43,004 nucleotides of DNA from Acidithrix ferrooxidans. GTDB lineage: Bacteria; Actinomycetota; Acidimicrobiia; Acidimicrobiales; Acidimicrobiaceae. The DNA lies in NCBI RefSeq assembly GCF_000949295.1, contig NZ_JXYS01000079.1:679-43682 (forward strand), read 5' to 3'. The notes under the pieces were generated by a model, which searched no databases, was not told the DNA's origin, and saw nothing but the letters and a program-made list of their open reading frames with translations. Within the stretch, counting starts at the first letter, position 1. Each line of letters begins with the position of its first letter. Made by a program: the position numbers and the translations under genes. Shown in pieces: positions 20,306 through 22,514 of this stretch.

Positions 20306-20674
20306 CTAAGCTTCTTTAGCGGCTAAGGCTTCTTTGGCTACACTAGCGATCTGGGCAAAGGTGTCGCCATCGGTGACAGCTAGCTCTGCGAGCACTCGCC
20401 TATCCAAATCAATCTCCGCTAACTTTAGCCCTGCGATCAACTGAGAGTAGCTGATGCCATTCAAACGCGCTGCTGCATTGATCCTTTGAATCCACAAGCG
20501 ACGAAAATCACCCTTTCGCGCGCGACGGTCGCGATATGAGTACTGCAAAGCGTGCATGACTGCTTCGTTTGCTGACCTAAAACTCTTTGACCGATTACCG
20601 TAGTAACCTTTAGCGGACTCTAATACTGCTTTATGGTTTTTCTTGGCGTGAACGCCACGTTTTACTCGAGCCAC
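20306..20674 (-). CDS. rplT: Ribosomal protein bL20
   Basis: 122 residues. A basic large-subunit protein that binds 23S rRNA early in assembly. The highly conserved [24 protein letters not shown] start and [18 protein letters not shown] (quoted in parts) identify it. The GTG start has AGGTAGGA upstream. It is third in the infC-rpmI-rplT order and may repress the operon as in other bacteria, though no leader structure could be confirmed. Confidence 0.98.
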
Positions 20675-20810: not shown

Positions 20811-21005
20811 TTAGAGACCTAGCATTCGACGGATTTGTCGAGCCTGGCCGCCAGTAACTTCAGCATCTTGTGCCAAGCGCCTTGTCCTTGTTGAGGACTT
20901 CTTCTCGAGCAAATGCGCTCGATAAGACTTGCGCCTTGTAATCTTTCCGGTAGAAGTCACTTTAAAGCGCTTCTTCGCACCGGTATCAGTCTTCATCTTT
21001 GGCAT
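20811..21005 (-). CDS. rpmI: Ribosomal protein bL35
   Basis: 64 residues, full length, starting [20 protein letters not shown] as in the family. It is a very basic large-subunit protein. ATG has GGGAG 8 bp upstream. It lies between infC and rplT, 322 bp after infC and 136 bp before rplT. Confidence 0.98.
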
Positions 21006-21327: not shown

Positions 21328-21927
21328 CTAAATATCACCATCGGCGATAATGTTAGGATGATCATCCCCGCTGTCGCTACGAGTAGCTACAGGTTTTACT
21401 GGTGACTTACGCTCGGGTGCTAAAACCAAAATCATGTTCTTCCCGTCAAGCTTCGCCGCAGCCTCAACCTTGGCGATTCCGGCGGTCTTCACTTCGATCT
21501 TATCGAGAATCGACTTACCGAGCTCTGGATGAAATACTTCTCGTCCTCTAAACATCACAGTAATTTTGACTTTATGGCCCTCACCTAGAAACTTGATAAC
21601 CTGTCGGGTCTTAGTGTCAAAATCTCCGATGCCAATCTTTGGACGGTACTTCATCTCTTTTAGCTGCGAGCTTACCGACTTGCGCCTTGAATCTCTAGCC
21701 TTTTGAGCGCTATCAAACTTGAATTTGCCATAGTCCATTATTCGACAAACTGGAGGCATTGCATTAGGTGCCACCTCCACCAAGTCAAGGTCCATGGTCT
21801 TGGCAAGATCTATAGCCTCGGCCACAGATTTAATGCCTAGCTGATTTCCTTCTTGATCGACGAGTCGAACTTCTCGCGCGCGAATCCTCTCGTTTGTACG
21901 AGGTTCACCTGGTGTTGCAGTTGCTAT
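21328..21927 (-). CDS. infC: Translation initiation factor IF-3, AUA start
   Basis: 199 residues. IF3 binds the 30S subunit and proofreads the start codon. The family core LDLVEVAPNAMPPVCRIMDY, KEMKYRPKIGIGDFDTK and VTVMFRGRE-like KITVMFRGREVFHPELG are intact. The conserved N-terminal segment PRTNERIRAREVRLVD lies upstream of the first GTG (21825). The frame is closed by TAG at 21928-21930, so translation must begin at or after 21927. The only candidate with a proper Shine-Dalgarno (GGGAG, 9 bp upstream) is ATA at 21925-21927. Non-AUG starts in infC are known (AUU in E. coli) and allow IF3 to repress itself. It heads infC-rpmI-rplT. Confidence 0.93.
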   Translation of the reverse strand: MATATPGEPRTNERIRAREVRLVDQEGNQLGIKSVAEAIDLAKTMDLDLVEVAPNAMPPVCRIMDYGKFKFDSAQKARDSRRKSVSSQLKEMKYRPKIGIGDFDTKTRQVIKFLGEGHKVKITVMFRGREVFHPELGKSILDKIEVKTAGIAKVEAAAKLDGKNMILVLAPERKSPVKPVATRSDSGDDHPNIIADGDI

Positions 21928-22002
21928 CTAACATCACTCCCTAAGTATGAAAAATTCAAACCAAAATCGACATCACTAAAAAAGAGACACTCGATCGGTA
22001 CT

Positions 22003-22031
22003 AAATTAAAAATTACAACAAATTGGCTCAA
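22003..22031 (-). promoter_or_regulatory. Candidate promoter of infC-rpmI-rplT
   Basis: On the minus strand TTGAGC (22026-22031) and TAATTT (22003-22008) are separated by exactly 17 bp. This would give a leader of about 70 nt before the ATA start of infC. Confidence 0.4.
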
Positions 22032-22142
22032 TAAATCAAGCGAACTCTATGCCGAACTGAGTCGAGCCCGATGAAATAAGATTCATCAAGGCGGCAGCCG
22101 AAGCTAGCACTTGCAAAGAATAGTGCTATTAGTCTATCGGTA

Positions 22143-22514
22143 ATGAGTACGCTTTGGACACCTGATGGTGAATACACCCCGAAAACAGAACAAAATGAAA
22201 CCCCGGCGCCACAGCAGATGGGAGATTTGAAGAATGCCGAGGAAAAAAAGGACGAAACACAGGAGCTGGCAGATCAAATTAGAAAAGCCGATCCAGCGGT
22301 AATCGTGGCAAATCACTGCTATGGCCTCTTCGAACTTGCCGCAATACACCTTTCAGATCAGCCACCAAATCTAATTGGCGCATCTCTTGCCATTGACGCA
22401 CTAGCTGGTATTGTAACCTCACTTGAAGGTAGACTTGGCGAATACGAGCCAGAACTAACTGATGCCCTAGCACAGCTTCGCCTAGCATTTATCCAGATGT
22501 CTTCGCTCCAGTAG
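22143..22514 (+). CDS. DUF1844-family protein
   Basis: 123 residues. The N-terminal part (SLWTPDGE-like STLWTPDGEYTP, then acidic and Gln-rich) is variable. The C-terminal 60 residues (NHCYGLFELAAIHLSDQPPN, LAIDALAGIVTSLEGRLGE) are the DUF1844 helical domain. Function is unknown. A gene of this family sits beside infC in many actinobacteria, as here, divergent from it by 215 bp. There is no clear Shine-Dalgarno, so a leaderless transcript is possible. Confidence 0.85.
   Translation: MSTLWTPDGEYTPKTEQNETPAPQQMGDLKNAEEKKDETQELADQIRKADPAVIVANHCYGLFELAAIHLSDQPPNLIGASLAIDALAGIVTSLEGRLGEYEPELTDALAQLRLAFIQMSSLQ

Follow-up and report, generated by a model that had tools for sequence, protein, structure and literature searches.

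Where does translation of infC, the gene for IF3, begin in Acidithrix ferrooxidans? In the window (the whole stretch of 43,004 nucleotides that was analysed) mechanical ORF calling puts the start of infC at the GTG at 21825, which is codon 35 counted from an upstream ATA. A start at this GTG would strip residues 1-34 from the protein and, with them, the first 24 residues of its match to the Pfam domain IF3_N. A sequence-only reading of the locus had proposed that infC begins at AUA. The features that bear on this question are as follows.

21328-21927, minus strand: infC (IF3), 199 codons from ATA plus stop (TIGR00168, PF05198, PF00707, reading frame)
21925-21927, minus strand: ATA start codon of infC, ATA in 11/11 genus loci
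21928-21930, minus strand: in-frame TAG immediately 5' of ATA, closing the infC frame
21937-21941, minus strand: Shine-Dalgarno (SD) GGGAG, extended as GGGAGTGAT, 9 nt before ATA; GGAG in 11/11 genus loci
21823-21825, minus strand: first in-frame GTG (codon 35), the choice of a standard ORF caller, rejected here
20811-21005, minus strand: rpmI (L35), next gene downstream of infC (TIGR00001)
20306-20674, minus strand: rplT (L20) (TIGR01032)

The product was identified as IF3 by the NCBIfam profile TIGR00168 (201.2 bits against a cutoff of 60) and its N and C domains by PF05198 (109 bits) and PF00707 (102.3 bits), both above their cutoffs; the gene order on the minus strand is infC, then rpmI, then rplT. 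The IF3_N match starts at residue 11 counted from ATA, so that the conserved N-terminus does lie upstream of the first GTG, as had been claimed. The 5' region of the gene on the minus strand reads GGGAG-TGATGTTAG-ATA-GCA, and the placing of TAG directly before ATA (21930-21928) and of GGGAG 9 nt upstream (21941-21937) in the sequence-only reading was correct. A stop closes the frame 9 codons ahead of the RTN motif (locus L001), and no ATG, GTG or TTG occurs from that stop to the conserved N-terminus, leaving infC with no usable start of the standard kind. Among the surroundings of the gene, a divergent 123-aa ORF upstream of infC (22143-22514, plus strand) had no NCBIfam match. No Rfam family reached its gathering score in the window, and no sigma-70-type promoter or terminator pattern was found in 21900-22160. 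On these scans, and on the variability of the sequence 5' of the SD within the genus (see below), a structured or annotated leader was rejected.

Pairing with the ribosome was assessed by calculating duplex energies between the 19 bases upstream of each candidate start and an anti-SD sequence matching the tail of the genome's own 16S gene. This gene ends in GGATCACCTCCTTTCT (L272), presumably the exact mature 3' end. The ATA at codon 1 gave the best duplex of the candidates (-10.6 kcal/mol). The next rare-start candidate is, as had been noted, the ATT at codon 15, which gave a duplex of -1.8 kcal/mol. The remaining candidates gave -6.6 (ATT codon 32), -2.6 (GTG codon 35), -2.6 (ATA codon 39) and -1.5 kcal/mol (ATG codon 45). 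Inside the extended SD the sequence TGATG (21932-21936, minus strand) contains an out-of-frame ATG 2 nt past GGGAG. As a start this ATG (21934-21932, in the context GTGATG) was rejected, the SD being too close and GTG being found in five genus loci; we assign it to the extended SD.

A search of the genus took in 12 genomes, that of A. ferrooxidans included, and all 12 were matched. The 11 loci with an N-terminus were used, one genome (G007, locus L012) being left out as it holds a C-terminal infC fragment only. The start is ATA in all 11 loci, and GGAG stands 9 nt before it in every one. Although the genome is a draft assembly in 183 contigs, the idea that the locus is mis-sequenced, with an ATG or some upstream codon of a different frame as the true start, is vanishingly improbable: ATG or GTG in relatives, with an error here, had been named as the evidence that would count against AUA, and the ATA and its SD are identical in 10/10 other genus loci with the N-terminus, which rules sequencing error out.

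The same loci bear on whether a truncated IF3 is made from an internal start (GTG codon 35, ATT codon 15 or ATT codon 32). In codons 2-14 the variable sites at codon positions 1, 2 and 3 number 5, 2 and 10 of 13 respectively; across nine units of codon size that lie 5' of the SD every site is variable (9, 9 and 9 of 9). The weight of variation on third positions in codons 2-14 is the pattern of a coding sequence between the ATA and the ATT at codon 15. Furthermore, codon 4 changes only synonymously (GCA in four loci, GCG in seven), which argues that translation starts before codon 4. The isoleucine codons 15 and 32 read ATT in six and ATC in five genus loci, alternating as ordinary isoleucine codons do, and codon 35 is GTG in one of the 11 and TTG in another one. 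An internal start can call on the GTG at 21825 being the first standard start codon and on the moderate SD pairing of ATT codon 32, but it is a most improbable reading in view of these patterns and of an IF3_N domain that begins at residue 11, and the three internal codons were rejected as infC starts on conservation and SD. The AUA at 21927-21925, with its conservation, SD and closed frame, is thus strongly supported as the start codon of infC, as the sequence-only reading had proposed.

The survey was extended to the family and order. In the family 42 genomes were searched, 41 matched and 40 loci were read (11 from the genus and 29 from other genera, with L012 dropped). For the order, a subset of 148 genomes out of a larger group was searched and 144 matched, four of those in the focal family; 90 of the 140 order loci outside this family form a first set and, with the 40 family loci, make up the 130 loci read. 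Starts were taken by a script as the ATA or ATC 6-10 codons before the RIN motif, with L095 set by hand to GTG. The start is ATA in 97 loci, ATC in 32 and GTG in one: ATA in 11 genus loci; ATA in 20 and ATC in nine loci of the family's other genera; and ATA in 66, ATC in 23 and GTG in one locus of other families. An ATA or ATC is therefore kept at the homologous place in 129/130 loci and GGAG with ATA in 11/11 genus loci, so the comparison of relatives that had been suggested as a check bears out the call. The description of AUA as a rarer version of the AUU start has to be amended, since AUA is the commonest infC start among the order loci read and has already been published for Staphylococcus aureus. 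The infC of A. ferrooxidans is a further case of the already known non-canonical infC starts, ordinary for this gene and the norm in its order. The frame is closed, with no ATG, GTG or TTG before the RIN motif, in 97/130 loci (11 in the genus, 26 in the other genera and 60 in other families). An ATG, GTG or TTG lies 18 codons or fewer before the motif in 12/130 (L031, L032, L064, L067, L071, L082, L095, L102, L103, L112, L121 and L131), and in 11 of these, all but L095, the ATA/ATC call is weaker and rests on SD and position. In the stretches from other families, isoleucine codons past the start are mostly ATC (332, with 58 ATT and 45 ATA), which indicates that ATA marks the start position and does not reflect isoleucine usage generally.

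In a wider comparison, automatic and uncurated calls by SD energy gave ATC as the best start in 13, ATA in six and CTG in one of 20 loci chosen in the class's other orders, and ATC in 46, ATA in 19, ATT in 11, ATG in two, TTG in one and GTG in one of 80 named loci; the sets are not summed because the named loci partly duplicate others (L193 is L085 and L206 is L066). In L176, from a different order of the same class, a CTG that follows CGAGGTGAT is a possible start of infC. Second, diverged IF3-like matches were seen besides infC in G098 (C24:102346-102846, 45% identity) and G169 (C347:8406-8903, 44%).

In many loci of the order a short ORF in the +1 frame of infC ends in a UAG that overlaps the infC AUA, as in L146, which reads ATG AGG AGT GAT CGG CCA TAG. 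An ORF counted as such a minicistron if it lay in the +1 frame relative to infC, began with an NTG placed 4-9 codons upstream of the overlap, had no stop in between, and was preceded by GGAG, GAGG or AGGA within the 4-19 nt ahead of its NTG. In the first set 35/66 ATA loci outside the focal family passed (35/61 of those with ATAG), while 500 dinucleotide shuffles of positions -60 to -14 gave a mean of 2.6 and a maximum of 9; in the other two frames 0/66 and 1/66 passed. No ATC locus passed in the +1 frame (0/23 outside the family and 0/9 within it, 0/32 in total), and the focal family's ATA loci likewise gave 0/31. Background passes were seen in 3/23 ATC loci in frame -1, in the named ATC loci L222 and L223 and, in the +1 frame, in L189, an ATA locus of another order. 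A second set of 40 order loci, 21 of them from the order search and 19 from a further one, was picked before the sequences were seen, mostly from families known to carry the feature (16/40 from family f7), so that its families were not sampled independently. ATA stands at the homologous place in 40/40 of these (39/40 by SD energy alone) and 38/40 passed, all but L135 and L165; the shuffles gave a mean of 1.3 and a maximum of 5, and the other frames none.

Taking both sets together, the minicistron is present in 73/130 loci outside the focal family (here the 90 and 40 loci of the two sets, not the 130 of the start survey) and in 25/56 families, these loci lying among L032-L111 and L122-L171. 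It is 5 codons long in four loci, 6 in 31, 7 in 31 and 8 in seven, and starts with TTG in 37, ATG in 22 and GTG in 14. The overlapping triplet, which the test did not require to be a stop, is TAG in 72 and TAA in one. The TAA, in L157, arises because infC codon 2 is ACA there, so that the overlap is kept through a different stop. In L095, the sole locus with a GTG start, an in-frame ATG CGG AAC GAG CGT CGA TAA lies directly before the GTG. L123 (family f18) has an ATC start, although the three other sampled loci of its family carry the minicistron; by eye, its leader ATG is in a different frame and runs past the infC start.

The SD of infC itself is weaker than -6 kcal/mol in 21/73 minicistron loci as against 3/33 order ATA loci without a minicistron (Mann-Whitney p = 6e-7, which overstates the case as related loci are not independent), and in 0/32 ATC loci and 0/31 ATA loci of the focal family. 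For the SDs of the minicistrons themselves the median is -10.3 kcal/mol and none is weaker than -6, although an SD is demanded by the test. As support, the p-values carry less weight than the frame specificity and the count of families. The encoded peptides vary, which favours a role in delivering ribosomes over a function of the peptide; the Arg-Ser-Asp that recurs in them comes from translation of the infC SD.

These sequence patterns suggest that termination-reinitiation feeds the AUA in the minicistron loci. Termination at the UAG or UAA would leave the ribosome over the infC AUA, and post-termination ribosomes could reinitiate there, in many loci with little aid from the SD of infC. Only an AUA followed by G or A makes an overlapping stop, which would explain the use of AUA over AUC or AUU. 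Short upstream ORFs with an internal ribosome binding site are reported to boost translation of the next gene (PMC13255528), and the minicistron resembles such synthetic ORFs in holding the SD of the next gene, and the ATGA/TGATG gene pairs (PMC6728339) in that its stop overlaps the next start. It differs from the systems described in these sources in being natural, in overlapping a non-canonical AUA (AUAG/AUAA) and in preceding the IF3 gene. Among the matches listed from the open-licence literature, by titles and the beginnings of abstracts, no infC leader ORF or minicistron overlapping AUA was found; a paper matched for infC with leader peptides and translational coupling deals with Bacillus subtilis rplJL. 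The AUA-overlapping minicistron may be the more novel observation, but it belongs outside the window. That it also feeds the AUA of A. ferrooxidans is very unlikely. The locus has ATAG and a +1-frame TTG ORF of 11 codons, but this TTG has no preceding SD, three members of the genus have ATAT and hence no overlapping stop, and the focal locus is itself among the 31 ATA loci of the family that failed the test; a minicistron was accordingly rejected here.

In A. ferrooxidans, then, the preferred reading is that infC starts at AUA by way of the GGGAG SD and that IF3 represses its own synthesis through this AUA, the feedback being drawn from the known biology of IF3; we consider this very probable as a whole. 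The GGGAG(TGAT) SD would set AUA 21927-21925 in the ribosomal P site, where IF3 would destabilise the initiation complexes formed on it. High IF3 would thus lower its own synthesis and low IF3 would relieve the block, giving a translational loop like that at the AUU of Escherichia coli. The E. coli gene is reported to have an ATT start with autoregulation (PMC5472188); it is like the infC described here in being the IF3 gene and in its non-canonical ATN start and feedback logic, and differs in using ATT where A. ferrooxidans has ATA with a predicted feedback. Another is S. aureus infC, in which an AUA start was found by Ribo-Ret and autoregulation is called likely (PMC13009471). The codon, the gene and an extended SD are the same, but S. 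aureus belongs to a different phylum and its start was measured, while ours is read from sequence. Streptomyces infC (PMC5472188) and other Actinomycetota of the named set share phylum, gene and rare start but have ATC rather than ATA, and Listeria monocytogenes infC has a fixed non-canonical start too, but ATT (PMC13068326).

It is possible, although unlikely, that the AUA of A. ferrooxidans merely holds IF3 low, with no IF3-dependent feedback. In S. aureus, rare starts at three sites, of which two are AUA, are reported to give about 10% of the AUG reporter yield in poor medium (PMC13009471), which is in keeping with this view. IF3 is, however, reported to counteract non-canonical starts in E. 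coli and Streptomyces (PMC5472188), and the rare start is kept in all but one of the 130 loci read. Self-repression by IF3 is likely at the focal infC, and the AUU-like regulatory logic put forward in the sequence-only reading is probably right.

For a large part of the order, the focal family not included, we think it somewhat more probable than otherwise that an AUAG or AUAA minicistron with a strong SD drives IF3 synthesis by reinitiation. Excess IF3 is reported to inhibit rare-codon initiation and also reinitiation at sites poor in SD, so with such a leader infC would respond to IF3 at two steps. The sign of the effect on reinitiation differs between sources. Overexpressed IF3 is reported to have cut reinitiation almost threefold on a reporter in E. 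coli, an effect that the authors link to an absent SD (PMC2268962), whereas a review describes in vitro work in which coupling depends on IF3 (PMC12548453).

Gene callers limited to ATG, GTG and TTG misplace the start of IF3 throughout the order, and the alternation of ATA and ATC among its members forms a natural series for the study of start-codon discrimination by IF3. If the minicistron reading is true, reinitiation and rare-codon initiation, both reported to be sensitive to IF3, would sit together on IF3's own mRNA, and these families would offer a natural system for the role of IF3 in termination-reinitiation, on which published results, as that review describes them, conflict (PMC12548453).
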